27,166 bases of DNA from a virus, in the IMG/VR virus record IMGVR_UViG_3300048590_000038, positions 1-27,166 of that record; one strand, 5' to 3'. Positions 6,707 through 22,139 of this stretch are shown piece after piece. The translations under genes were made by a program, and so were the position numbers. A model generated the notes under the pieces. It did not search any database. It was not told where the DNA came from and was given only the letters and a program-made list of their open reading frames with translations. The stretch's first letter is position 1, and each line of letters starts with the position of its first letter.

Positions 6707-7489
6707 ATGCGTAGACGTATCAGAATCATTCCTTACGGCCCGAGCAACTCGGCCAAGCTGCTGTCCCGTGCCCTGCGCGTCAAGCGCATCAAGCTGGATG
6801 GGACCAGCCGCTTCCTGTCACGGGACGGGGACGTGCTCATCAACTGGGGCAGGCACAACGGGATGGGCAGGCCCCTGCGTGGGTTCGTGAACGTGCTCAA
6901 CGGTTTCGACCGGGTGGCTGTGGCCCGTGACAAGCTGGCCTGCTTCAAGGCGCTGACCGAGGCACGGGTGCCGACGGTGGAGTGGACGACCGACAGGGCG
7001 CTCGCCTTTGCGTGGGCGCAGGGCGGACACACGGTGTTCGCTCGCCACTCTACCACGGGGCAGGGAGGCAGCGGAATCGAGATCGTAGATCCCGAGTCTG
7101 CCGTGCCCATCGGGGAGGACGATATGCCTGACGCCCCGCTGTACACCAAGCGGTTCCGTGCCGAGCATGAGTACCGGGTCCACGTGTTCGGCCCGTACCA
7201 TCTGGCGCAGAAGAAGCGGCGGCGCAACGGAGCGGAGCCTAACGCTGTGCGTAACCACCGCAACGGCTACGTGTACTGCACACGGGAGATTGAGGCTCCC
7301 AATTCTGTGACTTCAACGGCTTGCTCTGCGGTAGCTGCGCTCGGATTGGACTTCGCTGCGGTGGATCTCATGTGCAACAACGCAGGGGAGGCTCGGGTTC
7401 TGGAGGTCAACACGGCACCGGGCATCGAGGGGTCTACGCTGGACTTCTACGTGGAACGCTTCCGTGAGAAGCTGGGGGTGGCGGTATGA
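6707..7489 (+). CDS. ATP-grasp ligase
   Basis: 260 residues. The ATP-grasp elements are present: DKLACFKAL at 75-83, the glycine-rich ATP loop GQGGSGIEIV at 118-127, an E-Y-R-V-H-V-F strand at 155-161, and the C-terminal metal site with D220, then LEVNTAPGIEGST (E233, N235) at 232-244. ATP-grasp ligases make acyl-phosphate intermediates and join carboxylates to amines or thiols. It completes the cassette of two GS-like amidoligases, GGCT and GATase, an association predicted in comparative genomics (Iyer, Aravind and colleagues) to make peptide-like modifications; the product is unknown. The start is at 6707 because GGAGAGG lies 4-9 nt upstream. Its stop overlaps the next ATG. Confidence 0.9.
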   Translation: MRRRIRIIPYGPSNSAKLLSRALRVKRIKLDGTSRFLSRDGDVLINWGRHNGMGRPLRGFVNVLNGFDRVAVARDKLACFKALTEARVPTVEWTTDRALAFAWAQGGHTVFARHSTTGQGGSGIEIVDPESAVPIGEDDMPDAPLYTKRFRAEHEYRVHVFGPYHLAQKKRRRNGAEPNAVRNHRNGYVYCTREIEAPNSVTSTACSAVAALGLDFAAVDLMCNNAGEARVLEVNTAPGIEGSTLDFYVERFREKLGVAV

Positions 7490-7809
7490 GCAAGCACGAA
7501 CTGTTCAAGGAACTGGGGCTGGACGCCCACCAGTGGGACGTGTGCTCGCTGGTCTACGAGGCACGCGAGGCTGAGATCGAGAGTCTGCGCTCGCGGCTGG
7601 CCGAGGCCGATGTGTGCCTGCACAGCACAAGGGTGACGCTCATCGAAGTCGCTGAGCATAGTGACTTTGAAGAAGGCGCGGAGTTCGGAGTTAGATCGTG
7701 CTGTCACGTAAGAGACTACAGGCCACACGCAGAGTCGTGTGCAGTAATGCGTGCGATTTCCAACATCGACGCCTTCCTTGCGCGGGAGCAGAGCCATGAG
7801 TGCCGGTGA
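7486..7809 (+). CDS. hypothetical coiled-coil protein, partial paralogue of its neighbour
   Basis: 107 residues, ATG coupled to the preceding stop. The centre (AREAEIESLRSRLAEADVCL, about residues 26-45) is a short coiled coil. A Cys/His-containing C-terminal half (SCCHVRDYRPHAESC) could bind metal. No family is recognised. Twenty nucleotides at 7585-7604 recur exactly in the next gene (8012-8031), so the two share part of their coding sequence by duplication or recombination. Confidence 0.65.
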   Translation: MSKHELFKELGLDAHQWDVCSLVYEAREAEIESLRSRLAEADVCLHSTRVTLIEVAEHSDFEEGAEFGVRSCCHVRDYRPHAESCAVMRAISNIDAFLAREQSHECR

Positions 7810-8483: not shown

Positions 8484-8747
8484 ATGAACGAGTGGCAGAA
8501 GGTGAACGAGGCGCTGGATACCGTGCTTGGCAGCAGGCTCCGGGCCATCTGGTTGTGTGTGAAGGTGGACGAGAAGCCCCTGCACGTGGTGGCTAAGGAA
8601 TTCGACCGAACGGTGGCGGAGATCAAGGCAGCCGTGGACTTGGCGGACTGGGTGTTGGAGCGGGCGGACTTGGCCCCGAAGATCCCGCCTAAGCCCCCGC
8701 TCAAGCCGTGCTACGAGGGGTTCCACCAGATGGGGGACGGGGAATGA
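8484..8747 (+). CDS. small helix-turn-helix-like protein
   Basis: 87 residues, ATG eleven bases after an AGAGG. Residues about 18-60 (LRAIWLCVKVDEKPLHVVAK, then EFDRTVAEIKAAVDLADWVL) have the pattern of a sigma-region-4-like helix-turn-helix, followed by a proline-rich tail (PKIPPKPPLKP). It could be a small DNA-binding regulator. The similarity is by pattern only. It precedes a second unknown gene and the sigma-factor-like gene in one overlapping string. Confidence 0.6.
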   Translation: MNEWQKVNEALDTVLGSRLRAIWLCVKVDEKPLHVVAKEFDRTVAEIKAAVDLADWVLERADLAPKIPPKPPLKPCYEGFHQMGDGE

Positions 8748-9094
8748 GCATCTTCGACAACTTGATTGAGGGAGCTACCGGGGTGCGTGTGCGCAACGGC
8801 TTCGAGCGTCAGCCCCTTACGGTTGAGCGGCTTGACGACGTACGGTCGGTGCCTAGTTCGTACATGGACGAGCACACGATGCAGCTGCGAGTCACGGTAA
8901 CTTACCGCGTGACGCACGGGGCCACGGTGGAGGGGCAGGCTCAGGTTAGAGAGTCGGCGCTCCGGCACTTGCGGGCCACACTGTACGGGGATCTGCTTCT
9001 TCTGAACTCGGAGATCCTGCACGCTATCTCGGACGGTGACGCCACGAGGGCGCGGGACTTGTGCCTTAAGCTGAGACAGGAGATCACAGGATGA
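8744..9094 (+). CDS. hypothetical protein
   Basis: 116 residues, ATG overlapping the previous stop. The N-terminal and middle parts look beta-rich (MQLRVTVTYRVTHGATVEGQ), followed by two amphipathic helices. There are no Cys motifs or membrane segments, and no family is recognised. It is translationally coupled on both sides and sits directly before the sigma-like gene. Confidence 0.65.
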   Translation: MSIFDNLIEGATGVRVRNGFERQPLTVERLDDVRSVPSSYMDEHTMQLRVTVTYRVTHGATVEGQAQVRESALRHLRATLYGDLLLLNSEILHAISDGDATRARDLCLKLRQEITG

Positions 9095-9873
9095 GTGAGC
9101 GAACGTACGAGAACTACTACAAGGCCAAGAGTGCCGAGATCCACAAGACGTGGGTGGCGGGCATGATGGAGCTACGAGCCACGGGGGTGCAGCACACGGA
9201 CGACGAGGGCGTGTCCGCTCTGGAGAAGAAAGTACGGGCCTATCAGGACAGGTTCGTAGCCGGGGATGATGCGGCTCGGCACATCGTCTGGGCGCTGGTC
9301 TGGAAGGTCATGGTTGCCCGCGCATCACGGGGTGGCATGGACTACGAGGAAGCAGCGAACGTGGCAACGGACGCCCTGATGTACGTGCAGGACTACGTGA
9401 CGCGGGTGCCTGAGCAGGTGGCCTCGCTCATGGCCATGTTCAACCGGAGTCTGTGGATGCACGTGCAGCGGGTGAAGGACGGGCGGGGACACCTGCCCGA
9501 GATCATGGAGGCGAACTTGGACCTGCCGGGGGAGGACCCGTACTCAGGTGACGAGGAGGAAATCGAGGAGCCGTTGGTGCAGCTTGAGGCTGCGATGATG
9601 GGGAACGGGTACGTGCCTCACGCGTACCTGACGTCGGTAACATTGGCAACACCGGAGAGTGATGTAGTGTCAGAGAATCTGCGAGAGTTCTTGGAGAGAG
9701 TAGCAGTCGAGGCCTGCGGACAGGAAGCGTGGGGCATCTACCACGCTGTTGTGGTACAGGAGAAAACGCAGGCAGAGATTGCCGAGACGCACGATATGGA
9801 CCAGTCCACGGTGTCCCGCAAGGTGCGTGACGTGGGACTGGCCCTACGCGAGGCCCTTGTAAAGGGCGCGTAG
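9091..9873 (+). CDS. sigma-factor-like DNA-binding protein
   Basis: 260 residues. Residues about 60-130 (AARHIVWALVWKVMVARASR, DYEEAANVATDALMYVQDYV, FNRSLWMHVQRVK) follow the sigma-70 region 2 pattern. A Glu/Asp-rich linker comes next. Residues about 208-255 (EAWGIYHAVVVQEKTQAEIA, DQSTVSRKVRDVGLALREAL) form a region-4-like helix-turn-helix. This suggests an ECF-like sigma factor or an anti-termination/regulatory relative that redirects host RNA polymerase. It is the last gene before the long regulatory gap and could act on it. Family placement is by pattern; a search against sigma-70 regions 2 and 4 would decide. Confidence 0.6.
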   Translation: MSERTYENYYKAKSAEIHKTWVAGMMELRATGVQHTDDEGVSALEKKVRAYQDRFVAGDDAARHIVWALVWKVMVARASRGGMDYEEAANVATDALMYVQDYVTRVPEQVASLMAMFNRSLWMHVQRVKDGRGHLPEIMEANLDLPGEDPYSGDEEEIEEPLVQLEAAMMGNGYVPHAYLTSVTLATPESDVVSENLREFLERVAVEACGQEAWGIYHAVVVQEKTQAEIAETHDMDQSTVSRKVRDVGLALREALVKGA

Positions 9874-9886
9874 TAACTTTCTTTTT
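9845..9886 (+). terminator. terminator-like hairpin at end of the sigma-like gene
   Basis: Outer arms TACGC/GCGTA and inner arms GCCCTT/AAGGGC (loop GTA, 3-nt bulge on the left) form an 11-bp stem overlapping the TAG stop. TTTCTTTTT follows at 9878-9886, five bases after the stem. The spacing makes it a moderate intrinsic terminator. Confidence 0.45.
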
Positions 9887-9917
9887 AACACCGTGCATAA
9901 AATCCGGGAAAAATGGT

Positions 9918-9932
9918 CTATACTAAGTATAG
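9918..9932. promoter_or_regulatory. 15-bp palindrome overlapping -10-like elements
   Basis: CTATACT and AGTATAG are exact inverted arms around one A. Either arm can be read as a -10 element (TATACT at 9919, TATAGT at 9928), so a repressor bound here would block the promoter. Confidence 0.45.
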
Positions 9933-10043
9933 TACGGGGGACGAGGGTGAACGTACCCGAGTCCCTCAACCCGGTAGCCCCGGACCTGTTGGGCAGGCCG
10001 GGGCGGACGGCGGGTCATGGCACGGTGGCGTGCCGGACCATAC

Positions 10044-10057
10044 GTCATACGTATGAC
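10044..10057. repeat. palindrome copy 6, next to the Shine-Dalgarno of the first replication-module gene
   Basis: Perfect GTCATACGTATGAC, followed by ATAGGAG and the ATG at 10071; it ends 13 nt before the start, the same register as at 942, 1960 and 6680. Confidence 0.95.
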
Positions 10058-10070
10058 ATAGGAGAACTGG

Positions 10071-10298
10071 ATGACTTATGAAGAATTCTGTAAGGGGCTA
10101 CGTCCGATGGACTACGCGGAAGGCGAAGGACTTTCGGAAGCTGGAAGAAAGGTTGAAGGTCTACTCGCGTACGCCGACTACTGCGCGTCAGACTCGGACA
10201 GCCCAGACACGGACGACGGATGGGGATACCTGACCCCCGAAGCTCAGGCCAACGACGAAGCAGAGTGGAGCCAGATGCTCCGGGAAGGTAAGCTATGA
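10071..10298 (+). CDS. small acidic protein, first gene of the replication module
   Basis: 75 residues, ATG with GGAG seven bases upstream. Strongly acidic (YCASDSDSPDTDDGWGYLTP and EANDEAEW-like runs), with no basic patches or Cys. Acidic early phage proteins sometimes mimic DNA or inhibit host enzymes, but nothing specific is recognisable here. It is coupled to the next gene by a 4-nt overlap. Confidence 0.7.
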   Translation: MTYEEFCKGLRPMDYAEGEGLSEAGRKVEGLLAYADYCASDSDSPDTDDGWGYLTPEAQANDEAEWSQMLREGKL

Positions 10299-10516
10299 GC
10301 GATGACTACAGCAACATCAAGTTGACGCAGCGTAAGCCGAACGCCAACATCCAGTCGGACAAGTGGGGCAGCATTGCGGAAATGTACCGTGACCTGAACC
10401 CGCAGATCACGTACCATGCGTTCCTCGGTCGCATCAAGAAGGGGCTGGACCCGATGACGGCGGCGACCAAGCCGCGTGACCCACGCGGTCGCAAGTCTCG
10501 GCATACGTTCTCGTGA
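10295..10516 (+). CDS. small basic protein with helix-turn-helix-like motif
   Basis: 73 residues, ATG overlapping the previous stop. A segment from about residue 24 (KWGSIAEMYRDLNPQITYHA, FLGRIKKGLDPMTAATKP) resembles the short DNA-binding motif seen in small phage proteins and near homing-endonuclease C-termini (Y-x-T-F-x-x-R-V-x-x-G-W-x-x-x-x-A-x-T-x-P). The tail is basic (RDPRGRKSRH). A DNA-binding role is likely but unproven. Confidence 0.65.
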   Translation: MSDDYSNIKLTQRKPNANIQSDKWGSIAEMYRDLNPQITYHAFLGRIKKGLDPMTAATKPRDPRGRKSRHTFS

Positions 10517-10665
10517 TGCGCCTACCGTGGCCCTTAACAGCGTCGTTCATAGGGGTGGCCATGTACCTCACCAGTCAGATCTTTGACTCTACTGATCTGG
10601 CGCTGGCAAGCATCGTGGTCAGTATGTTCGCCATTGGAGCCATGATGCGGGACATTCTGCGGTGA
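10516..10665 (+). CDS. small membrane protein
   Basis: 49 residues, ATG overlapping the preceding TGA (TGATG). Hydrophobic stretches at residues about 7-18 (LTASFIGVAMYL) and 28-43 (ALASIVVSMFAIGAMM), joined by an acidic loop, suggest two membrane helices. No family is recognised. The stop overlaps the GTG of the next gene, as expected for real coupled genes. Confidence 0.6.
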   Translation: MRLPWPLTASFIGVAMYLTSQIFDSTDLALASIVVSMFAIGAMMRDILR

Positions 10666-10859
10666 GCGCAGGTGACTGGCTGGACGACCATCTGTGCAGT
10701 CCGATCGAGCCGTGGCCGGTGGAGTGTGACTGCTGCCACCGCACGTTCGGGTCGGACAAGATGGTTGTCGAAGAAGGAGACCGGTGGGAATGCTTCGACT
10801 GCTGGGAAAAGCTGGAAGCGAAGGAGAGAGCGCGTGAGCAGAGCCGCAATAGCAGCTGA
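10662..10859 (+). CDS. small zinc-finger protein
   Basis: 65 residues from GTG. Two CxxC pairs (CDCC near residue 22-25 and CFDC near 44-47), separated by about 18 residues, form a treble-clef-like finger, followed by a charged helix (EKLEAKERAREQ). It is next to the primase gene, which overlaps its end by 26 nt. No named family. Confidence 0.65.
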   Translation: MSAGDWLDDHLCSPIEPWPVECDCCHRTFGSDKMVVEEGDRWECFDCWEKLEAKERAREQSRNSS

Positions 10860-11646
10860 GGGCATGACGCTGGAGCCGGGGCAGAGCATACGGATGGTCT
10901 GTCCCTTCTGCGGCGGCGGGGCGAGCGGCGAGCGGAGCATGAGCATCAAGCTGTCCGAGGAGAACGGGCTGCTGCTGTACCATTGCTTCCGTGCCAACTG
11001 TCCCGCTGCCGGGGTGATCGGCAACACGGGCAATGTCATACGTATGACACGCCCCGCCCCGTCGACGTGGCAGCCATGGGATTGCAGCGGGTTCAACGCG
11101 TACATCCCCGAATACGGGATGGACAAGGTGAACGAGTGGCGTCTGTCTGTTGCGACGTCTGGTATCTTGTGGGACGACGATACGCACCGGTTGGCGCTTC
11201 CCGTATACGGGCCTATGGAGGACCTCAGAGGCTACGTGCTACGGGCGGTGGACAACCGTAGGCCCAAGACCCTATCGGCCCGCCTGCGCAACGACGTGCC
11301 GTTCCAGTCGTGGACCCGGAGGGGGTCCCATCTATACCAACCCGGGCGGATCTACGTGGTGGAGGATATCCCCTCGGCAGAGAGACTGCGGTACCTCGGG
11401 CGTCAGGCTGTGGCCCTGCTCGGGTGTACCCCAAGCGACGAGGCTCTGAGCGAGATAGCCACGGAGGCCCGACGTAGGGGTGGGTGCGAGCTAGCGATTG
11501 CCCTTGATGCGGATGCCACGCAGCAGGCGCTTAGGCTCCAGAGGCAGTACGGCATGAGGGGTAGCTCCCGTGTGCTGGTGTTGCCGAAGGATATCAAAGA
11601 CATGACCGACGTTGAGGTAAGTGAATGGGTGAACGCCAACTCATAG
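10834..11646 (+). CDS. DNA primase, T7 gp4 N-terminal type (zinc finger plus TOPRIM)
   Basis: 270 residues from GTG at 10834, chosen for AAGGAGAG just upstream; an ATG at 10864 has a poor ribosome site. Cysteines C23, C26, C51 and C56 (CPFC...CFRANC) form the primase zinc finger that reads template. The TOPRIM domain has the acidic metal residues E177 (YVVED) and D225/D227 (ALDADAT). It would prime lagging-strand synthesis with the adjacent helicase. In T7 the primase and helicase are one protein; here they are two overlapping genes. Palindrome copy 7 encodes V-I-R-M-T at residues 68-72, in the linker between finger and TOPRIM parts. Confidence 0.88.
   Translation: MSRAAIAAEGMTLEPGQSIRMVCPFCGGGASGERSMSIKLSEENGLLLYHCFRANCPAAGVIGNTGNVIRMTRPAPSTWQPWDCSGFNAYIPEYGMDKVNEWRLSVATSGILWDDDTHRLALPVYGPMEDLRGYVLRAVDNRRPKTLSARLRNDVPFQSWTRRGSHLYQPGRIYVVEDIPSAERLRYLGRQAVALLGCTPSDEALSEIATEARRRGGCELAIALDADATQQALRLQRQYGMRGSSRVLVLPKDIKDMTDVEVSEWVNANS
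11035..11048. repeat. palindrome copy 7, inside the primase gene
   Basis: Perfect TGTCATACGTATGACA (11034-11049), coding frame GTC ATA CGT ATG ACA, read V-I-R-M-T, between the zinc finger and the catalytic domain. Confidence 0.95.
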
Positions 11647-12836
11647 GGAGCCTTATCAAAAGCAGAGAGGCGTTCGACCGGGTAGCAAACCACTTGACCG
11701 ATGCGGACCTGACTGAGCAGGCGAAGGTCATAGTGCAGCACGTGCGGGAGTACTACGACAGAGACGCTGGCGCGTCCCACGTAGACCCCGAGTTGTTGAA
11801 GGGTGCGATCTGTCGGACGCTATCGAACCCGAAGCATCAGGCAATGTTCACGGAGCTAGTGTCTGACCTGTCCGCTGCGGACGTCAGCCCTGCTAACGTG
11901 GTGACGGACTTCATTGCCGTGCGCCGGTCAGCGACCGGCAGCAAGCTGGCCTCCCTGCTCGCAGCAGGCAAGCCGGTGGAGGAAGTCAGACCAGTACTGG
12001 AGGAGTACGACACATGGGCAAGAGCAGAGACAGTCGAGGAGAAGGAGCGGGACGTACGCAAGGGGCAGTCGGTAGCGGATTTAGTAGCAGCCCGTACGAG
12101 GGCCGGTGGCCTAGTCAAGGTGCTACCACGAGCGTTGAACGAGCGGTTGGACGGGGGCTTGTTGCCGGGGCATCACATGATCGTGTTCGCCCGACCCGAG
12201 GTGGGGAAGTCCCTGTTCGTAATCAACGCAGTCGCGGGCTTCTGCCAGCAGGGGCTCACTACCCTGTACGTGGGGAATGAGGACCCGATTGGCGACGTTG
12301 TGATGCGCACGGTGAGTAGGCTGGCGGACATGACACGCCACGAGGTTATGGACAACCCGGCCCAAGCGGCGGAGGCCGCACGGCAGAGGGCCTACGACAA
12401 CGTGATCTTCGCTGGCATGGCACCGGGTAGCGCCCGAGAGATCGAGGCTCTGATGATCGAGTACAAGCCACACGTCGTGATCGTCGATCAGCTGCGCAAC
12501 CTAGGGGTGGGCAAGGAGGACAACTTCACCCGCAAGCTGGAGATCGCAGCGCAACAGGTGCGTGCCCTCGGGCAGCGGCACAAGGCTGTGATGATCAGCG
12601 TGACGCAGGCAGGAGACAGCGCGAGTGGTAAAGCGGTGCTTGATATGGGCGACGTTGACAGTAGCAATACTGGCATTCCTGCTCAGGCGGACGTACTGGT
12701 GGGCATTGGGATGAGCCACGAGGATGAGGCGTTCGGGCGCAGGATGATCAGCCTGCCGAAGAACAAGCCGGGTGGCAATCACTCTGCGTTCCCCGTGCTG
12801 GTGGATCCAACCAAGTCGAAAATGAGGAGCGAGTAA
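11625..12836 (+). CDS. replicative DNA helicase, DnaB/T7 gp4 C-terminal type
   Basis: 403 residues. An N-terminal helical domain (1-130) is like that of DnaB, followed by a RecA-type ATPase. Walker A is ARPEVGKS at 189-196 (the usual first glycine is replaced by Ala), Walker B VVIVDQ at 284-289, and a sensor-like S-V-T-Q segment at 325-328. It is a hexameric 5'-3' helicase that unwinds the fork ahead of the phage polymerase. The start overlaps the primase gene by 22 nt in a different frame, with GAGG upstream. The full RecA core is present, so it is not a fragment. Confidence 0.9.
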   Translation: MGERQLIGSLIKSREAFDRVANHLTDADLTEQAKVIVQHVREYYDRDAGASHVDPELLKGAICRTLSNPKHQAMFTELVSDLSAADVSPANVVTDFIAVRRSATGSKLASLLAAGKPVEEVRPVLEEYDTWARAETVEEKERDVRKGQSVADLVAARTRAGGLVKVLPRALNERLDGGLLPGHHMIVFARPEVGKSLFVINAVAGFCQQGLTTLYVGNEDPIGDVVMRTVSRLADMTRHEVMDNPAQAAEAARQRAYDNVIFAGMAPGSAREIEALMIEYKPHVVIVDQLRNLGVGKEDNFTRKLEIAAQQVRALGQRHKAVMISVTQAGDSASGKAVLDMGDVDSSNTGIPAQADVLVGIGMSHEDEAFGRRMISLPKNKPGGNHSAFPVLVDPTKSKMRSE

Positions 12837-12838
12837 CA

Positions 12839-13069
12839 ATGTCGATTGAACTGAACAGGATCATCTGCAAGCATTGCGGGGCAGAGGTAGTGTCGGCGTT
12901 CCGCCACGACTTCCGTGCCCACACGTGCGACAAGATGAAGGCTGCGTACAACGGGTCGAACGAGGTATTCATTGCAGCGGACGGTGGCCCTGCGTACCTG
13001 AGACGGTGTGGCAATCACTCGGATTGGGAGGAGGCGTCCATCTGGAAGAACGACGTAGAGGTGGGGTGA
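12839..13069 (+). CDS. small zinc-finger protein
   Basis: 76 residues, ATG two bases after the helicase stop. CKHC at residues 10-13 with H-D-F-R-A-H-T-C downstream gives a Cys2-His-Cys finger, followed by an acidic, aromatic C-terminal half. No named family. It is tucked between helicase and polymerase and its stop overlaps the polymerase GTG, so it is probably made together with the replisome; a DNA-binding accessory role is inference. Confidence 0.7.
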   Translation: MSIELNRIICKHCGAEVVSAFRHDFRAHTCDKMKAAYNGSNEVFIAADGGPAYLRRCGNHSDWEEASIWKNDVEVG

Positions 13070-14901
13070 GCCTACCTGACTTCGTAGCCCACCCAGATCC
13101 CTCTGTGTACCGGCTGGGCATCCCTCTGTTCCTTGACTTCGAGACTACCACCCATGAGAAGGGGCTAGCGATCTACAAGGAGAACAGCATCGTGCTGGCC
13201 TGCTGGCAGTTCGGGTGGGACGGCCAGATGGAGACGGAGTGGGGCAGCGAGTTCGATCTGGTCGATCTGGTTCGTGACGTAGAGATGTGCGACTTCATCG
13301 TGGCACACAACTCCAAGTTTGAACTACAATGGCTGGCCCGGTGCGGGGTGGACCTGTCGGAGGTCCTCGTGTACGACACCATGCTAGCCGAGTACGTGAT
13401 AGGAGGTAACAGATGGCAGACCGGACAGTTGTCATTGGAGTCCTGTCTCCAGCGCCGGAAGCTGGGCGGGAAGGTATCGCTGGTCAGCAAGATGATCAAG
13501 GCCGGGGTAGACACGAGGGACATACCGTCGAGCTGGCTGGAGAAGTACTGCCAGCGGGACGTATCCGCCCTCACGGAATTGATGAGGGCTCAGCTTACGG
13601 ACATGGAGGGTACACGTCTTTTGCCAGTCGTCTACTCACGTTGTTTGCTGACTCCCGTACTCGCAGACTTGGAAAGCGAGGGCCTTAAGCTAGATCCAGA
13701 TGTCATACGTATGACACTAGACGAGCTATCGACGAAGGCTGACGAGCTAGTGATCGAACTTAACCGAATGACAGGAGGTATCAACCTTGCGTCCCCGATA
13801 CAACTAGCAGAGTTCCTGTACGACAAGCTGGGGTTTGAGGAACACCGGGTCAAGAAGGGCGGGAAGTGGGGGCCGAAGCGCACCGCAACCAACCGGAGGA
13901 TGACAGGAGCGGACGAGATATCGTCCCTCAAGGTAACGACAAAGGATCAGCAGCGGTTCATGGACCTGTACCTTGAGCACAGGGACGTACACAACCAGCT
14001 GACCAAGTACATGAGGAAGTTCAAGGACTGCTGTGACGAGGCCGATGGTGTACTGCTGGCGCAGTTCAACCAGATGCAGAGCCGAACGCACCGCCTGTCG
14101 TCGAGCGGCCTTAGGTACAAGACGCAGTTCCAGAACCTACCCCGCTCCTACAAGCGGATGTTCAAGGCCAAGCGTGATGGCTGGCTGATGGGCGAGGTAG
14201 ACGGAGCGCAGCTGGAGTTCAGGGTTGCAGCCCACTTGGGCAGGGATGACCAAGCTATCGAGGACATACGGGCTAAGGTTGACGTCCACGCCTTTACGTC
14301 CAAGACGCTGACGGATGCGGGCCAGCCGACTGACCGGCAGGGCGCGAAGGAACACACCTTCAAGCCGCTGTACGGTGGGTCCTCAGGCACGGATGCGGAG
14401 CAGACCTACTACCGGGCCTTCAAGGACAGGTACAAGGGAGTGGCGGCGGTGCAGGGCACGTGGATCAACACGGTGCTGATGGAGAAGAAGTTGGAGACGG
14501 AGTGGGGTCTGGTCTACTACTGGCCGGACACGAAGATGGACCGGAGCGGATACATCACGAACACCACGTCGATCTGCAACTACCCGGTGCAGGCATTCGC
14601 CACGGCAGAGATCATACCTCTGGCTCTGGTGTGTATGTGGCACCGCTTGAAGATGGTCGAGCGACCCGGCATTGCGCTGGTGAACACGATCCACGATTCG
14701 ATCATTGCCGAAGTGCACCCCGAAAAGGTGGAGGAATTCCACACGCTAGCACGGCAGGCGTTGATCGACGATGCTCGGATGATGATTGATAGGCTGTACG
14801 GGATTGACCTTGTGTGCCCGCTTGGGTGCGGCGTGAAGGTCGGGGACCGATGGGGCCAAGGCGAAGAACACAAGTACGAAAGAATGGAGGAAGCAGCATG
14901 A
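13066..14901 (+). CDS. DNA polymerase, family A, with 3'-5' exonuclease domain
   Basis: 611 residues from GTG overlapping the previous stop. Proofreading domain: D24 and E26 (LFLDFETTT), the H-N-S-K-F-E segment at 81-86, D104, and Y161/D165 (YCQRDV), all present and apparently active. Polymerase domain: motif A EVDGAQLEFRV (D379), motif B R424...K428...Y436-G437, with Phe at 432 where E. coli Pol I has F762, and motif C IHDSIIAEV (H543, D544, with Ser where Glu is usual). It is shorter than T7 gp5 (704) but complete. Palindrome copy 8 encodes V-I-R-M-T at 213-217, between exonuclease and polymerase domains. A PolA of DpoZ type, as in Z-DNA phages, cannot be excluded. Confidence 0.92.
   Translation: MSLPDFVAHPDPSVYRLGIPLFLDFETTTHEKGLAIYKENSIVLACWQFGWDGQMETEWGSEFDLVDLVRDVEMCDFIVAHNSKFELQWLARCGVDLSEVLVYDTMLAEYVIGGNRWQTGQLSLESCLQRRKLGGKVSLVSKMIKAGVDTRDIPSSWLEKYCQRDVSALTELMRAQLTDMEGTRLLPVVYSRCLLTPVLADLESEGLKLDPDVIRMTLDELSTKADELVIELNRMTGGINLASPIQLAEFLYDKLGFEEHRVKKGGKWGPKRTATNRRMTGADEISSLKVTTKDQQRFMDLYLEHRDVHNQLTKYMRKFKDCCDEADGVLLAQFNQMQSRTHRLSSSGLRYKTQFQNLPRSYKRMFKAKRDGWLMGEVDGAQLEFRVAAHLGRDDQAIEDIRAKVDVHAFTSKTLTDAGQPTDRQGAKEHTFKPLYGGSSGTDAEQTYYRAFKDRYKGVAAVQGTWINTVLMEKKLETEWGLVYYWPDTKMDRSGYITNTTSICNYPVQAFATAEIIPLALVCMWHRLKMVERPGIALVNTIHDSIIAEVHPEKVEEFHTLARQALIDDARMMIDRLYGIDLVCPLGCGVKVGDRWGQGEEHKYERMEEAA
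13702..13715. repeat. palindrome copy 8, inside the DNA polymerase gene
   Basis: Perfect TGTCATACGTATGACA (13701-13716), again in the frame V-I-R-M-T, in the region joining the exonuclease and polymerase domains. Confidence 0.95.
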
Positions 14902-15485
14902 GTCAGCAGACTAAGGGTGTTGTCAGCAACACGAGCGCGAAGGACTGGAAGGGTCGTAACGGCAACGTCACGCTCTACTCGTTCCAGATTGAGGGCGACA
15001 AGGGCTGGTACCGTTGCGGTACCGACAAGCCGCCGTTCTCCATGGGTGACTCGATTCAGTTCGAGTACGAGGAGCAGAACGGCAACCGCACTCTGGTCGC
15101 AGGGTCGGTGACAAAGGTGGCAGCCGCCCCGGCTGCGCGTGCCCCGGCAGTCAAGACGTCGGGCAAGGTGCAGGAGAACTGGGATGCGAGAGCGAAGTAC
15201 TGGGATGACAAAGAGAAGCGCGAGATCGAAGTTGTCGAACCTCGTATCACGCTTTCTGCGTCACGTACAGCAGCGATTCAAGTCATTGGTCTTGCGCTGG
15301 CTAACGAGGCCATCGTCTTTGGCAATGCTAGCAAGGGCGCTAGGTTGGGGATCATCCTCGACGCCATTGATGAAGTCACTGCTCGTTACTATGAGCAGAG
15401 CATGAAGGGTGTCGGCAAGGTTGAGGCTGAGCCGGTGGCGGAGTCCGAGGACTTCAATGACGAGATTCCCTTTGGAGACGAATGA
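14898..15485 (+). CDS. single-stranded DNA-binding protein
   Basis: 195 residues, ATG overlapping the polymerase stop. The N-terminal half is a beta-rich OB-fold-like domain (GNVTLYSFQIEGDKGWYRCG, IQFEYEEQNGNRTLV), then an Ala/Pro linker near 74-90, a helical region, and an acidic tail ending D-F-N-D-E-I-P-F-G-D-E. That tail is the classic SSB partner-binding peptide. It should coat single strands at the fork and recruit polymerase and nucleases. Position directly after polymerase fits. Confidence 0.82.
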   Translation: MSQQTKGVVSNTSAKDWKGRNGNVTLYSFQIEGDKGWYRCGTDKPPFSMGDSIQFEYEEQNGNRTLVAGSVTKVAAAPAARAPAVKTSGKVQENWDARAKYWDDKEKREIEVVEPRITLSASRTAAIQVIGLALANEAIVFGNASKGARLGIILDAIDEVTARYYEQSMKGVGKVEAEPVAESEDFNDEIPFGDE

Positions 15486-15583
15486 TGCGTGAGATCCTGA
15501 GCCCCCTGTTCGTGGCGGTCCTGACCGTCATCATCCTCGTGGCGCTCTTGAGCGTCCTGTTCCTGAACGTGTTTGGAGTGTAA
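15485..15583 (+). CDS. very small membrane peptide
   Basis: 32 residues from the ATG at 15485 (GGAG seven bases upstream); an ATG at 15482 in the same frame is possible. After M-R-E-I-L-S-P-L-F the remainder is one continuous hydrophobic helix (VAVLTVIILVALLSVLFLNV). It fills the gap between SSB and the next gene exactly. It is too small to assign; single-helix phage peptides can be regulators of membrane enzymes or of lysis. Confidence 0.6.
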   Translation: MREILSPLFVAVLTVIILVALLSVLFLNVFGV

Positions 15584-15588
15584 GAAGA

Positions 15589-15906
15589 ATGACCGATACT
15601 GTGACAGAAGTGGTTGACACCGACGGCGAGTCCCTCGGTATGCCGTGCGTGTTCCAGAAGGACAACTACGTGGTCGCCATCAGCGACGAGATCGAGTTGA
15701 CCTATCAGGGCAATACGTACCTCGGTGGCTATGAGGTCATCAACATCGAGACGGGCATCACGGAGTACATGACTACGGCTCTGCCGGAGGCCATCTTCTC
15801 TGCGGTGAACCTTGCTCACGCCATGAAGACGAAGCCGTGGGAGTGGCGTGACGACGAGGGCAAGACGCCAGCGCCGAAGGCAGCAGCGGACAGCGTGCTG
15901 AACTGA
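15589..15906 (+). CDS. hypothetical protein
   Basis: 105 residues, ATG five bases after the previous stop. Acidic and beta-rich (DNYVVAISDEIELTYQGNTY), with a helical segment (PEAIFSAVNLAHAMKTKPWE) and a flexible Ala/Pro tail. No family is recognised. It stands between SSB and the exonuclease, a place where T7-like phages often carry small accessory genes. Confidence 0.7.
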   Translation: MTDTVTEVVDTDGESLGMPCVFQKDNYVVAISDEIELTYQGNTYLGGYEVINIETGITEYMTTALPEAIFSAVNLAHAMKTKPWEWRDDEGKTPAPKAAADSVLN

Positions 15907-15907
15907 T

Positions 15908-16768
15908 ATGCGCGCACACCTAGACGCAGACGTGATCGTTTACAGGGCGGGATTCGCCGCTGAGCATACGTACTGGGATCTGGTGTGGACTGTCGATGGC
16001 ACGGAGTTGATGCGGGAGTTTGAATCTCGCAAGGACTTGGACGCGTTCATGGAGCAGGAAGGGTTGAGTCACCTGAATGTCCTGATCTCGTCCCGTCGTG
16101 TGGCGGAGCCGGTCGAGCACGCGCTGTTCAATGCGCGGTCGATCATTCGGACGGTCGGGGAGAAGATGGAGGCGGATGATCTCGTCCTCTATCTCTCCGG
16201 CCCTACGAACTTCCGGCTAGGCCGGGCCACCCTGATGCCGTACAAGGGCAACAGGGACGAGGCCCACAAGCCTGTCCACGCTGCGGCAATCAAGGCCATG
16301 ATGCGTAGAGAGTACAACGTGGTGACGTCCGACGGCCAAGAGGCTGACGACGATATCGCTACGGCCCACTACGCCATGTGGCTGCGCGACCCGATGAGCA
16401 GCGTGATCTGCACCATCGACAAGGACCTAGACATGGTACCGGGCCTTCACTACAACTTCGTGAAGGACGAGCGGTACTACATGGAACCAGAGGAATGCAC
16501 CCGCAAGTTCTACGAGCAGCTGATCAAGGGCGACCCGACTGACAACATCCCCGGCATCAAGGGGATGGGGCCAGCCAAGGCTGCCAAGGCGCTAGCTGAC
16601 GTCAAGGACGAGTGGGGAATGTACACAACCGTGCGCGACCTGTACCGTCGAGCCTTCGGGGATGCCGAGGCTGACGAGGTACTGCTAGAGAACGCACACC
16701 TGCTCTGGATGCGGCGCGAGCCGAACGAATGGTGGAGTCCACCGAGGGATCCGAATGCAAGCACCTGA
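15908..16768 (+). CDS. 5'-3' exonuclease, T7 gp6-like (FEN family)
   Basis: 286 residues. PIN/FEN metal-binding acids are visible: D6/D8 (LDADVIVYRAGF), E89-D91, E145 with D147-D149 (EADDDIA), D171/D173 (IDKDLDM) and D209/D212. The helix-3-turn-helix DNA-binding motif is GIKGMGPAKA at 216-225. In T7 the homologue degrades host DNA and removes primers. It overlaps the following HD-protein gene by 14 nt. The order polymerase, SSB, exonuclease matches the class III-type replication block of T7-like phages. Confidence 0.9.
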   Translation: MRAHLDADVIVYRAGFAAEHTYWDLVWTVDGTELMREFESRKDLDAFMEQEGLSHLNVLISSRRVAEPVEHALFNARSIIRTVGEKMEADDLVLYLSGPTNFRLGRATLMPYKGNRDEAHKPVHAAAIKAMMRREYNVVTSDGQEADDDIATAHYAMWLRDPMSSVICTIDKDLDMVPGLHYNFVKDERYYMEPEECTRKFYEQLIKGDPTDNIPGIKGMGPAKAAKALADVKDEWGMYTTVRDLYRRAFGDAEADEVLLENAHLLWMRREPNEWWSPPRDPNAST

Positions 16769-17390
16769 ATCACAAGAGTTCTACAAGAAGATGGGAGTTG
16801 GTTTCGTCGAGACGTCGAGCGGAGCGCACTTCAATCTGGATGAGCCGGACTTCCGGCCCGAGGATATCGCCCATGCGCTAAGCATGAACTGCCGCTTCAA
16901 CGGCCACGTCCGACAGTTCTACTCGGTGGCGGAACACAGCCTGCTTGTCAGCGCGCTGGTCTACCACATGGGCGGGAACCAGCAGCAGTGCTTGGAGGCG
17001 CTCCTGCACGACGCGACCGAGGCGTACCTGAGTGACGTCCCTGCCCCGTTCAAGCAGTTCCTTCCTGACTGGCGGGCCATTGACGCCAAGCTGGACGCCA
17101 AGCTGCGCGAGTGGGCGGGCCTGCCGTCTGACAAGACGGGGCTGGTGAAGGACGCGGACTGGCTGGCCCTGTTCATCGAGGCGTACCACCTGCTGCCCGA
17201 CGGCGGCGAGTGCTTCCTTGATCCGGGTGACTTCCGTCCCCGAGCCATGAGGCTCATCGAGGAGGGACGTGGCAACCTGTACTACATGACGCCTAGCACA
17301 GCGCGGTCTGCCTTCCTCGGTAGCTGGCTGGAACTGGCAGAGGAGGGAGGCTATGACAACAGCGGTGTTGCTCGTCAAGGCGTTGCTTGA
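16755..17390 (+). CDS. HD-domain phosphohydrolase (YfbR/DatZ-like nucleotidase)
   Basis: 211 residues, start inside the exonuclease gene. The HD core is clear: DIAHALSMNCRFNGH near 37-51, FYSVAEHS (H61), LLHD at 83-86 (H85, D86) and KDADWLALF (D133/D135). YfbR-like enzymes dephosphorylate dNMPs, and the DatZ branch removes triphosphate from dATP in phages with 2-aminoadenine DNA. Which activity this has cannot be told by eye. A MazZ-type enzyme lies 1 kb downstream. The C-terminal 13 residues overlap the next small gene. Confidence 0.82.
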   Translation: MQAPESQEFYKKMGVGFVETSSGAHFNLDEPDFRPEDIAHALSMNCRFNGHVRQFYSVAEHSLLVSALVYHMGGNQQQCLEALLHDATEAYLSDVPAPFKQFLPDWRAIDAKLDAKLREWAGLPSDKTGLVKDADWLALFIEAYHLLPDGGECFLDPGDFRPRAMRLIEEGRGNLYYMTPSTARSAFLGSWLELAEEGGYDNSGVARQGVA

Positions 17391-17496
17391 CGCTGCCGTT
17401 GCCGGGTCGTCGTTCGTCAAAGGGGACGTGCCCGGTGGCTTCCTGTTCGTAACCTTCGTCCTTGTGGACATTGCATCAATCGGAGTACTCAAGTAA
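17353..17496 (+). CDS. small hydrophobic protein
   Basis: 47 residues, ATG preceded by AGGAGGGAGG, overlapping the HD gene by 38 nt. Two hydrophobic stretches (TAVLLVKALLDAAVAG and GGFLFVTFVLVDIASIGVL) suggest a membrane peptide. No family is recognised. The TAA overlaps the next ATG, which supports it being translated. Confidence 0.6.
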   Translation: MTTAVLLVKALLDAAVAGSSFVKGDVPGGFLFVTFVLVDIASIGVLK

Positions 17497-17834
17497 TGCA
17501 GATCGCTATCACGCTGGATGACGTCACCAGCACCCGCTACACGCTGGGTAAGTATGACTTCTACACGCGGCAGGCTGAGTTGTCTGACCATCTGGCAGCC
17601 AAGCTTGCAAAGCTGTCCGAACTAGATGCCGTGGTCCAGCGAGTGCTGGCAGCCATCTACGTGAGTCAGGGCAAGTTCATCCTCCCCGCTGATCTGGAGA
17701 CCATCGAGTGCATAAACATCGTTCCCGCCGTGGCAGCAACGCCCGAACCGCAGTCCGACGAGCAGCCCAAGCAGAAGGGTTCCGCTCCGCGTTCGAGCAG
17801 CGAGTCGCGGCGGCTCTCGATGCAGAAGGCGTAG
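17496..17834 (+). CDS. hypothetical protein
   Basis: 112 residues, ATG overlapping the previous stop. A folded-looking N-terminal 70 residues (beta strands then helix AAKLAKLSELDAVVQRVLAA) and a disordered Ser/Pro/Gln/Arg C-terminal tail. The last 127 nt also encode the start of the endonuclease in another frame, so the tail composition is constrained by that overlap. No family is recognised. Confidence 0.6.
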   Translation: MQIAITLDDVTSTRYTLGKYDFYTRQAELSDHLAAKLAKLSELDAVVQRVLAAIYVSQGKFILPADLETIECINIVPAVAATPEPQSDEQPKQKGSAPRSSSESRRLSMQKA

Positions 17835-18130
17835 CCTACGAGTACGAGTCTGAGGTGTTCAAGTACGAGGTCCACGACACGCGCAAGTACACCCCGGACT
17901 TCAAGGTGGGCGACATACGCATCGAGTGCAAGGGCAGGCTGACAGCCGACGACAGGAAGAAGCTGCTTCTGGTGAAGGAGCAGCATCCTGAGATCGACCT
18001 GAGGCTGGTGTTCATGTACCCGAACAACAAGCTAACGGCCCGGTCCAAGACCCGGTACTGGGAGTGGGCCGAGAAGAATGGGTTCAAGTGGGCCGACAAA
18101 GGGGTGCCGAAAGAATGGCTAGACGAGTAG
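17708..18130 (+). CDS. endonuclease I, T7 gp3-like Holliday-junction resolvase
   Basis: 140 residues from GTG. It matches T7 endonuclease I along its length: GFRSAFEQRV (E30), YEYES (E45), YTPDF (D64), IECKG (E73, K75), DDRKKLLLVKEQHPEIDLRL, and a C-terminal FKWADKGVPKEWL. All catalytic positions (T7 E20, E35, D55, E65, K67) are kept. It resolves branched DNA before packaging and helps break down host DNA. In T7 the gene lies before the primase; here it is after the exonuclease. It overlaps the upstream gene by 127 nt, which is long for this genome, because no later start precedes the catalytic core. Confidence 0.92.
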   Translation: MHKHRSRRGSNARTAVRRAAQAEGFRSAFEQRVAAALDAEGVAYEYESEVFKYEVHDTRKYTPDFKVGDIRIECKGRLTADDRKKLLLVKEQHPEIDLRLVFMYPNNKLTARSKTRYWEWAEKNGFKWADKGVPKEWLDE

Positions 18131-18351
18131 GATCAGCGGTGCTGGTGAACTGGCTGGACTCGGCCGTGTTCCGGGGCTGGAGGAGCGACGGCGAGAGCTT
18201 CGTCTCCGAGCCGTGCGAGAGTCTAGGGTACGTGGTTGCTGACACCGAGGGGGAGCTGACGCTCGCCGGGTCTCGGGCCACAAGCCAGTGGTGCCAGATC
18301 ATTACCATCCCCAAGGTAGCTATCACGAGGATCAAGAGGGTGAAGCTATGA
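18115..18351 (+). CDS. hypothetical protein
   Basis: 78 residues, ATG overlapping the endonuclease end by 16 nt. Beta-rich, small, mixed charge (VGSAVLVNWLDSAVFRGWRS, ...ITIPKVAITRIKRVKL). No domain is recognised. It is coupled to the next gene by a 4-nt overlap, in a run of nucleotide- and DNA-processing genes. Confidence 0.65.
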   Translation: MARRVGSAVLVNWLDSAVFRGWRSDGESFVSEPCESLGYVVADTEGELTLAGSRATSQWCQIITIPKVAITRIKRVKL

Positions 18352-18701
18352 GCATAGGCGATGTGGCCAGTCAGGAGCGCGGCAGCGGTGCCCGCTTCAA
18401 CAGCAACAAGACGAAGTGGAGTCTCATGCCACTGTACCTTCTTAAGGAGGTCGTGGACGTGTGGGAATACGGGGCGGTGAAGTACGCTGCGTGGAATTGG
18501 GCCAAGGGTATGCCGTGGTCTGTTCCGTACGAGTGCATACTCCGCCACCTGTTCCGGTGGTACTGGATGGGGGAGCGCAACGACCCAGAGAGTGGTAAGT
18601 CGCACCTAGCCCACATCATCTGCAACGTCATGATGCTGGTGCACTTTGAGACCAAGTATCAAGAGGGCGATGACCGCCCCAAGGAGTTCCGCGATGAATG
18701 A
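18348..18701 (+). CDS. dATP/dGTP pyrophosphohydrolase family protein (MazZ-like, DUF5664)
   Basis: 117 residues. It shows the family signature: GARFNSNKTKWSLMPLYLL near 14-32, EYGAVKYAAWNWAKGMPW near 41-58, RHLFRWYWMGERNDPESGKS near 66-85 and HLAHIICNVMMLVHFE near 86-101. MazG-fold enzymes of this type convert dNTP to dNMP plus pyrophosphate. MazZ members supply dGMP for 2-aminoadenine synthesis in Z-DNA phages, but the family also occurs widely in phages without that pathway. PurZ is not in this window. Confidence 0.85.
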   Translation: MSIGDVASQERGSGARFNSNKTKWSLMPLYLLKEVVDVWEYGAVKYAAWNWAKGMPWSVPYECILRHLFRWYWMGERNDPESGKSHLAHIICNVMMLVHFETKYQEGDDRPKEFRDE

Positions 18702-18858
18702 GTCTCAGTTGTTGAAGGCTGTACTGTCCCTGCTGGCCGGTGCCCGGTTCGACGCTAAGGGTGCAGACCTGATGCAGATTGCCGAGGTGATCCACCAGTT
18801 CAACAAGTACGTCGAGAACCGGGAGGCCGAGCAGGCGTCGAAGGTGCCGAATGAGTAA
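18694..18858 (+). CDS. small hypothetical protein
   Basis: 54 residues, ATG at 18694 overlapping the previous gene by 8 nt, with GGAG upstream. All-helical by appearance (SQLLKAVLSLLAGARFDAKG, DLMQIAEVIHQFNKYVEN). No family is recognised. Its stop overlaps the start of the phosphoesterase gene. Confidence 0.65.
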   Translation: MNESQLLKAVLSLLAGARFDAKGADLMQIAEVIHQFNKYVENREAEQASKVPNE

Positions 18859-19606
18859 GCGGCACCACCGCCATCTGATCATCCCCGATACGCAGATCCG
18901 TCCGGGCGAGCCGGTTCATCATCTGGACTGGGCGCGTGCTGCCATCTTGCAGTACAAGCCGGACGTCATCGTGCATCTGGGGGACCACTGGGACATGGCC
19001 AGCCTGTCGTCCTACGACCGGGCCGGGTCAAAGAGCATGGAGGGCAAGCGTTACCTCAAGGACGTTGAGGTTGGCAACGAAGCGTTTGAACGACTCAACC
19101 ACCGTATCACTACGGCACGGTACCGCCCCCGTAAGGTCATCCTGAGAGGGAACCACGAGAATCGGATTGAGCGTGCTATCGAGTCGGACGCCAAGCTGGA
19201 TGGGGCCTTGAGCATGGACCATCTGGACACGTTGGATTGGGAGTGTTATCCGTTCTTAGAGAGGGTGTGGATCCACGGCATCGTGTACTCACACTACTTC
19301 CAGCAGCAGAACTCCTCGTACGCAATCGGAGGTTCCATTGACAACCGACTCAACCGTATTGGTGACTCCTTCGTTCAGGGCCACCAACAGGGATTCCTGT
19401 ACGGAAATCGTGTTTACCCAACGGGTAGAACCCGGCACGGTCTTGTGGCTGGGTCCTTCTATCTCCACGATGAAGCGTACAAGGGGCGTCAGGGAAACGA
19501 TCACTGGCGAGGCATTGTCGTTCTCAATGGGGTTTGTGCTGGGGATTATGCTGTCATGCCTCTTGATGTTGGCTACTTGAGGCGCGAGTATGGTCGACGT
19601 AAGTGA
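18851..19606 (+). CDS. calcineurin-like metallophosphoesterase
   Basis: 251 residues. Metal-site motifs in order: IIPDTQ (D13, with Gln15 where His is usual), HLGDHWDM (D45), LRGNHENR (N101, H102), YSHYF (H148) and GHQQ (H178). Such enzymes hydrolyse phosphodiesters or phosphomonoesters with two metals; phage members may act on DNA ends or nucleotides. The Gln15 replacement may change the metal site. It overlaps genes on both sides. The substrate is unknown. Confidence 0.85.
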   Translation: MSKRHHRHLIIPDTQIRPGEPVHHLDWARAAILQYKPDVIVHLGDHWDMASLSSYDRAGSKSMEGKRYLKDVEVGNEAFERLNHRITTARYRPRKVILRGNHENRIERAIESDAKLDGALSMDHLDTLDWECYPFLERVWIHGIVYSHYFQQQNSSYAIGGSIDNRLNRIGDSFVQGHQQGFLYGNRVYPTGRTRHGLVAGSFYLHDEAYKGRQGNDHWRGIVVLNGVCAGDYAVMPLDVGYLRREYGRRK

Positions 19607-20759: not shown

Positions 20760-20793
20760 GCCCCGCCATGTCATACGTATGACGTGGCGGGGC
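20760..20793. terminator. bidirectional terminator built around palindrome copy 9
   Basis: A 34-bp inverted repeat with 17-bp arms (GCCCCGCCATGTCATAC and its partner) and a single T/G mismatch. The inner 14 bp are the phage palindrome. On the - strand the stem is followed by CTTTTTCTTT, a strong T-tract; on the + strand by ATATCTTTAT, which is weaker. It lies exactly between the convergent replication and structural operons. Confidence 0.88.
20770..20783. repeat. palindrome copy 9, core of the convergent terminator
   Basis: Perfect GTCATACGTATGAC flanked by GC-rich arms. It is the only copy outside the protein-coding and start-site contexts and the last one seen; none occurs in the - strand structural region. 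Confidence 0.95.
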
Positions 20794-21126: not shown

Positions 21127-22139
21127 TACACGTCCGAGACCGGGATCCAGCCGTCGTCGTCCGTGCGCCACTGCTTGCCAGCCGTGGCCGTGACCACGTA
21201 CACCGGGGTGTAGTCTACCCACGCCCGCAGCCCAGACACGCTGCTCAGGCCGGTAGTATGTAAGCATCCAGAGTCGTTGTAGGACCCCACGTCCGATGCT
21301 GCAACTTCCCCTTCTGGTACAGCTACAGGAATATAGTCCACCCACTTGCGCAGGCCGGACACAGACGAGAGAGCGTACACCTGCTTGGCAACGCGAAACG
21401 TACTCGCTACATCCGGGATCGTGATGGCCGGAGTGACATAGTCCTCCGTAAGGGCCGCCACCGTGGCGGCAAAGTCCGTGTCGTTCAGTGCGACGTTGTA
21501 CACAGCAAGCGCGGCCATCTGGCCGTTGAACTTGGCGTAGTTAGAGCGCATTATGGGAGCGGGAGTAGACGTGTCCCACCACATGGACCCGATAGCGGGG
21601 CTCGCCGTACCCTCGACACCATCTACTCCGACCTTAACAGTGCCTCCGTCGCCCGAGCATCGCATCGACAAGACGTGAGGCGTGGCCGCGGTGACGGCCT
21701 TAGCTCCGGATGTCTTCGGAGATCCGTCGTACACAAACGCGGTCATATTACCGTTCTGAGCTATTCTCCAGTCGAATAACCCGGACGGGTGGATCATCAA
21801 TTCGTAGCCTTCCGCCGTAGGAAGGGCAGCTAGCTGTACCACTAAGAACATAGTGAAGGCTTTACTAGCCGACGTTAAGTCACTATAGTTGGCGCTTAAA
21901 TCGAAGCCGTCGCTGTTCGCAGGAGTAAACTCGACTACTGGCCGTCCACCGAATCCGTCGACAAGCTGGGGCCGCTGCGCGTCAGCGGGGGCCTGAACAT
22001 AACGAGCATCAAGCTCGTTTACCCAGCGCCGAACTTCACTGCCCACAGACACCGCACCGGACCCGAGGCCCGTGAACATCTTAGTGGCGTAACTCGCCGC
22101 AGACAGATGGTAGACTAAGTTGGTTGTTGGAAGTGCCAC
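21126..22139 (-). CDS. tail fibre or receptor-binding protein with LamG-like domain
   Basis: 337 residues from GTG, with CGGAG overlapping the previous stop. The central part (about 90-240: AFTMFLVVQLA..., HVLSMRCSGDGGTVKVGVDG, GQMAALAVYNVALNDTDF) has the strand pattern of a concanavalin/LamG jelly roll, which binds glycans. Residues 257-274 and 298-315 are a repeat (LSSVSGLRKWVDYIPV / LSSVSGLRAWVDYTPV). No T7 gp17 N-terminal anchor domain is visible. Its place after the internal virion and lysis genes fits an adsorption protein, but head-fibre use is possible. Confidence 0.65.
   Translation of the reverse strand: MALPTTNLVYHLSAASYATKMFTGLGSGAVSVGSEVRRWVNELDARYVQAPADAQRPQLVDGFGGRPVVEFTPANSDGFDLSANYSDLTSASKAFTMFLVVQLAALPTAEGYELMIHPSGLFDWRIAQNGNMTAFVYDGSPKTSGAKAVTAATPHVLSMRCSGDGGTVKVGVDGVEGTASPAIGSMWWDTSTPAPIMRSNYAKFNGQMAALAVYNVALNDTDFAATVAALTEDYVTPAITIPDVASTFRVAKQVYALSSVSGLRKWVDYIPVAVPEGEVAASDVGSYNDSGCLHTTGLSSVSGLRAWVDYTPVYVVTATAGKQWRTDDDGWIPVSDV
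21195..21248 (-). repeat. second copy of the 18-residue repeat in the tail-fibre gene
   Basis: Encodes LSSVSGLRAWVDYTPVYV, 123 bp from the first copy. Confidence 0.8.
21318..21371 (-). repeat. first copy of the 18-residue repeat in the tail-fibre gene
   Basis: Encodes LSSVSGLRKWVDYIPVAV. The pair suggests tandem small modules near the C-terminus. Confidence 0.8.

Follow-up and report, generated by a model that had tools for sequence, protein, structure and literature searches.

A divergent sigma-70 family protein and a pair of promoter-like sites in an uncultured phage

The locus and its genomic setting

The DNA analysed here (the window) is a virus contig of 27,166 bp, IMG/VR record IMGVR_UViG_3300048590_000038. 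Its + strand carries a 260-aa open reading frame at 9091-9873, which is assigned to a divergent ECF-like sigma-70 factor on the basis of a TIGR02937 match, homologues and AF2 modelling, and which is followed by a non-coding gap of 197 bp (9874-10070). This arrangement was described in an initial annotation and is confirmed by gene calls. Behind the gap begins a rightward replication operon (10071-19606, + strand), delimited by PHROG and Pfam matches and gene calls, which includes + strand genes for a primase (10672-11646), a DnaB-like helicase (11625-12836), a DNA polymerase (about 13105-14901), an exonuclease-like protein (15908-16768) and endonuclease I (17708-18130). Ahead of the sigma-like gene, the segment 1988-7489 holds a cassette of phiEco32-type COOH-NH2 ligase, gamma-glutamyl cyclotransferase, amidoligase, class-II glutamine amidotransferase and ATP-grasp-like genes. 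The COOH-NH2 ligase/amidoligase cassette is also present in the relatives L053, L054 and L056, and it may encode a peptide-modifying pathway. An Rfam scan of the window gave no matches, and an ARAGORN call of a tRNA-Leu (cag) at 26729-26826 on the - strand, inside a structural gene, is probably false.

Two contigs from metagenome 3300048835, G001 (32,295 bp) and L026 (12,772 bp), represent a sister strain that is 98.7-99.4% identical to the window over the shared parts. Since the reversed G001 overlaps the window at either end, the two together describe about 45 kb of one phage. Its structural genes run leftward and its early and replication genes rightward, the terminase, portal, capsid and tail genes being named by position and sequence look alone. 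A divergent region of 1,445 bp, located on the sister contig and outside the window, separates the structural from the early genes. The 197-bp gap, initially presented as the only long control region, therefore holds that status inside the window but not across the phage. DNA-level searches matched no stretch to any phage record, and an integrase search with positive controls found none. The nearest cultured DNA polymerases are those of Stenotrophomonas phage StenR_269 (44% identity) and of Zobellviridae such as VpV262 (38%); with Vibrio phage 1.015.O included, the identities to these phages lie at 38-44%.

The product of the sigma-like gene

The 260-aa product matches the NCBIfam sigma70-ECF model TIGR02937 with E=2.9e-5 and 23.7 bits, below the curated cut-off of 42.9 bits, and the alignment extends to position 157 of 165, i.e., into region 4. 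It also matches, weakly, a PHROG sigma factor family (E=0.0046) and Pfam Sigma70_r4 (E=0.022). The protein can be divided into a weak region 2-like part (about aa 60-135), an acidic linker and a region 4 HTH (about aa 195-257). Region 2 is not recognised by Pfam in this protein, and hhalign comparison with other phage ECF sigmas aligns region 4 alone. AlphaFold models, built from a single sequence or from 11 sequences, are of low confidence outside the C-terminus, region 2 included, and the C-terminal HTH is predicted by AF2 with a pLDDT of about 93.

Used by itself, the protein found no match among 50,697 phage records and none in IMG/VR outside the sister strain, and a scan of genome contigs with the sigma alignment returned nothing. 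Its placement comes from 80 relatives gathered through a DNA polymerase alignment. Among the closest of these, G012 and G013 (polymerase identity 62%) encode homologues located, as in the window phage, between an ATP-grasp gene and the primase. These are linked to the window protein by phmmer (3e-13 for G012, 2e-9 for G013) and, for the G012 homologue (L063:6146-6727), by BLASTP (5e-17, 32% identity over 143 aa). The G012 homologue scores 47.8 bits against TIGR02937, above the 42.9-bit cut-off, over positions 3-164 of 165, and the G013 homologue (L064) scores 42.4 bits, against the same cut-off, over positions 10-162 of 165; both matches span regions 2 and 4. Because these homologues fit the sigma70-ECF model, the window protein is, by a chain of homology and not by its own score, a divergent, ECF-like member of the sigma-70 family. 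The sigma-like protein envisaged initially is in this way upheld in its family and in region 4, and its region 2, which Pfam does not recognise in the window protein, is covered in the homologues.

Sigma70-ECF matches (E<=0.1) were obtained in 16 of the 30 relatives scanned. ECF-like sigma genes of a second type occur in other relatives (L051:846-1274, L072, L073, L075, L076, L077 and L080); in L051 the gene lies between those for helicase and DNA polymerase, so that the position of sigma genes varies within this lineage. In the window itself, an 87-aa protein encoded two genes before the sigma gene (8484-8747) shows by eye a possible sigma-4-like HTH, its one match being a weak one to an unknown PHROG.

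Foldseek searches with the C-terminal HTH retrieved KorA and ArdK with a probability of about 1.0, KorA being a repressor. This result, like the weakness of region 2 in the window protein, would suit a rival explanation in which the protein is a KorA-like HTH regulator, either activator or repressor, and not a sigma factor, with the palindromic CTATACTARGTATAG acting as a dimer operator at two promoters served by host sigma. Yet sigma region 4 domains (e.g., SigE region 4, 2h27) were also retrieved, at 0.98-0.99, and in the G012 and G013 homologues the match to the sigma70-ECF model covers both region 2 and region 4. The regulator explanation is unlikely in our view, and the DNA sites described below bear on it further.

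The gap element and its counterpart ahead of the structural genes

The gap contains a bipartite, promoter-like element, TGCATAA-N14-GGTCTATACTAAGTATAG, at 9894-9932 on the + strand. The upstream box TGCATAA (9894-9900) is a putative -35 of the phage sigma, and the downstream box GGTCTATACTAAGTATAG (9915-9932) a putative -10 region, which holds the 15-bp palindrome CTATACTAAGTATAG (9918-9932). The initial annotation had noticed this -10-like palindrome and the lack of a good -35; a sigma70 -35 is indeed missing, but a non-sigma70 upstream box is present in TGCATAA. A weak sigma70-like match, TTAACA-18-AAAAAT, also occurs in the gap, and an AT-rich stretch within it has a GC content of 32% against 61%. 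The two strains do not differ in the gap, and the flanking DNA shows 10 changes in 1,063 bases.

The element is bordered by RNA structures of unequal strength. The hairpin formed by the last codons and the stop of the sigma gene (9844-9873, + strand, -16.3 kcal/mol) is followed by a T-rich tract (9877-9886), and it had initially been described as terminator-like; it is not accepted by a terminator consensus scan, though, and its fold is ordinary relative to shuffled sequences (z -0.84). Hairpin and tract may form a weak terminator or attenuator. On the other side of the element, a predicted structured mRNA leader (9936-10039, + strand) contains three hairpins, at 9936-9967, 9977-10004 and about 10013-10039. 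The RNA of 9928-10070 folds at -75.4 kcal/mol (z -4.5), a value equalled by none of 200 shuffles, which bears out the hairpins reported earlier. A further reported feature, the sixth copy of the dispersed palindrome GTCATACGTATGAC, is likewise found, at 10044-10057 on the + strand, just upstream of AGGAG and of the ATG at 10071.

Over the approximately 45 kb of the phage, the 18-mer of the downstream box has a single other copy, GGTCTATACTAGGTATAG, at L047:11308-11325, read from the sister-strain contig and outside the window; the next best unrelated match has 6 mismatches. This late copy points toward the leftward structural genes, about 160 bp ahead of the first one, and a TGCATAA box lies before it, 14 bp away as in the gap. 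The two sites share the form TGCATAA-N14-GGTCTATACTARGTATAG, with a downstream box also written GGTCTATACT. The late leader, on the sister contig, folds as strongly as the gap leader (z -4.9).

The same pair exists in G012, in the gap after the sigma gene and in the leftward leader, where both sites consist of TGCATAA, then 16-17 bp, then GTTTACTCTRTATA, the downstream box having diverged. A search for TGCATAA-N12..18-SGTYTA over the window phage and six relatives gave four matches, two in the window phage and two in G012, all on the correct strand in the gap after sigma or in the late leader and all sharing the 7-mer TGCATAA; the five other relatives gave none. The expectation from shuffling is 0.005-0.065 per genome for this pattern, which was derived from the sites that it describes. 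The independent facts are therefore that the element recurs once, at the late leader, with identical spacing and on the correct strand, and that G012 repeats the arrangement. Direct comparison of the gap with the divergent region gave a similarity of 15.8 in the window phage, above all 30 shuffles (maximum 12.0), and of 12.8 in G012 alone, below the shuffle maximum of 13.6. Across all of IMG/VR, the G012 form of the pattern occurs at its two sites only. In G013 a similar element, CTAATAATTTTGGCGTTAACTTCTTCTATAACTATAG, follows the sigma gene, on a contig that does not include the late leader, and relatives with other sigma genes (G016, G018, G024 and G026) do not show the pattern. The pair is seen in two phages, the window phage and G012, both of them uncultured. 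An IMG/VR motif scan with GTCTATACTARGTATAG returned two further contigs, rejected as chance hits, since they are unrelated and both matches apparently lie inside genes.

These sites return us to the regulator explanation. The gap box is a perfect inverted repeat, and palindromic elements can serve as operators. In G012, in contrast, the box CGTTTACTCTRTATA is non-palindromic and the upstream TGCATAA is kept, a combination that fits a promoter better than an operator. A second alternative is that the two sites are ordinary host promoters, used by sigma70 through TATACT or by a host ECF sigma, and that the phage protein has another purpose. TATACT is a fair sigma70 -10, and the weak TTAACA-18-AAAAAT match could be cited in the same sense. 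This alternative appears improbable, given that a sigma70 -35 is absent at the right distance, that the G012 sites do without TATACT in an unchanged layout, that one site of each pair lies directly behind the phage sigma gene, and that the downstream box has diverged between the phages along with the sigma.

The initial suggestion that the gap hairpins mark a replication origin is highly improbable: the AT-rich stretch and strong hairpins do lie just upstream of the primase, helicase and polymerase genes, but DnaA boxes are absent from the whole window and the late leader, which is not beside replication genes, folds equally strongly. The sister contig instead has two perfect DnaA boxes (TTATCCACA) in its divergent region (G001r 21,689-21,709, equivalent to L047 about 10,587-10,607), and they occur nowhere else in the window phage. 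The cumulative GC-skew minimum falls in the same region, at 21,260 of G001r, with the qualification that skew also tracks gene direction, and the divergent region of G012 contains four DnaA boxes (7,458-7,580). On these sequence features, the divergent region is probably the replication origin and a better candidate than the gap.

A candidate transcription programme and the dispersed palindromes

A sigma70-type promoter sequence precedes the early genes, TTGACT-17-CATAAT (L047 9189-9161), with 10 of 12 consensus positions matched; it is a consensus match only, the region having 3 matches of this kind where 1.9 are expected. A search that detected a T7-like control found no T7-type RNA polymerase on either contig or in G012, G013 and G016, so that the earlier remark that no phage RNA polymerase is visible holds for this type. 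Altogether, we consider it likely that a two-region phage sigma directs host core RNA polymerase to one replication and one structural promoter, while early genes depend on host sigma70. In this model, the host sigma70 holoenzyme would transcribe the rightward early operon, whose last gene is that of the sigma. The phage sigma would then bind host core and bring it to the promoter in the gap right behind its own gene, from which the replication operon would start, and to the second promoter, which lies about 160 bp before the leftward structural operon. A long folded leader would open each of the two transcripts. Core recruitment and promoter recognition are here inferred from the pair of sites and their neighbourhood; timing and start sites are predicted. 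The initial annotation had left open whether a sigma-like protein redirecting host polymerase would serve the replication operon or the structural genes; since the element recurs once, ahead of the structural genes, and the pair is repeated in G012, both alternatives look right. The phage thus probably takes over host transcription with one protein.

Comparable systems are known from experiment. In Salmonella phage 7-11, early genes use host sigma70, and the sigma factor SaPh711_gp47 acts with host core at eight promoters, which are bipartite (GTAAtg-16-aCTA) and located upstream of late genes (PMC8948821). In phiEco32, gp36 is the sigma for middle and late genes; it has no region 4 homology and its promoters consist of a single element, tAATGTAtA (PMC8948821). 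With both phages, the window phage would share a common promoter element of a non-sigma70 type ahead of its middle and late operons (two sites, and two in G012), as well as early genes with a sigma70-type promoter, here a consensus match only. It resembles 7-11 in its bipartite sites and differs from it in having two promoters instead of eight and other box sequences. The likeness to phiEco32 includes a member of the COOH-NH2 ligase type 2 Pfam family, which bears the name of phiEco32, whereas region 4 is here the clearest part of the sigma and the promoters are bipartite. Bacterial ECF (group IV) sigmas, described by TIGR02937, likewise have regions 2 and 4 only and bipartite promoters, but the window protein scores below the curated value, its N-terminal part is longer and its acidic linker is long. 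By analogy, the best reading is that the window sigma redirects host core as in the 7-11 and phiEco32 experiments and works like gp47 and gp36. The likeness proposed is one of function and not of orthology, tblastn having found no match to gp36 or gp47 at E<=1 in a phage collection that may or may not include both phages.

A phage sigma for middle or late promoters is of an already known kind, and what is new is a member in this lineage. An RNA polymerase is lacking in related phages such as SIO1 (PMC6775973), and StenR_269 is presumed to encode a virion polymerase of the N4-like type (PMC10747016). A sigma70-ECF gene was undetectable in the four cultured relatives scanned (1.015.O, 1.070.O, VpV262 and CRP-3), and StenR_269 gave a weak partial match only. 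Our search for literature on gene timing in these phages without a T7-type polymerase found no paper. One divergent sigma factor and two promoters would provide a minimal model for one branch of them and possibly a compact sigma-promoter set for laboratory strains. It would also follow that a pair of promoters can reveal a sigma factor whose profile score stays below the cut-off.

The dispersed palindromes are a more unusual feature than the sigma factor. The perfect palindrome GTCATACGTATGAC has 9 exact copies in the window, and with up to 3 mismatches allowed there are 10 matches, where 0.86 would be expected, at 368, 942, 1960, 3565 (2 mismatches), 4857, 6680, 10044, 11035, 13702 and 20770. 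Copies often lie 13-15 bp ahead of a start codon and otherwise in frame inside genes (VIRMT), and they are confined to the rightward half of the phage. Relatives have palindromes of their own, ACGTTAACSGTTAACGT in G012, CCTTAACATGTTAAGG in G013, CGTTGTACGTACAACG in G016 and GCTTGTACGTACAAGC in G018, several at matching positions such as the DNA polymerase and amidotransferase genes. This distribution resembles that in Cluster O mycobacteriophages (PMC4351075). It is conceivable, if doubtful, that the sigma switch is half of an undescribed two-part circuit of Zobellviridae-like phages, in which the palindromes would be stoperator-like sites where a phage protein shuts down the rightward half as sigma activates the structural half. 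In this reading, palindromes of differing sequence in several phages, often at matching gene positions, are confined to the rightward half, comprising early and replication genes, and end at its terminator. In the window, the last GTCATACGTATGAC copy forms the core of a long terminator-like hairpin, GCCCCGCCATGTCATACGTATGACGTGGCGGGGC (20760-20793, -31 kcal/mol), situated where the two gene sets converge, and in G013, G016 and G018 the last palindrome copy likewise lies at the end of the rightward genes.
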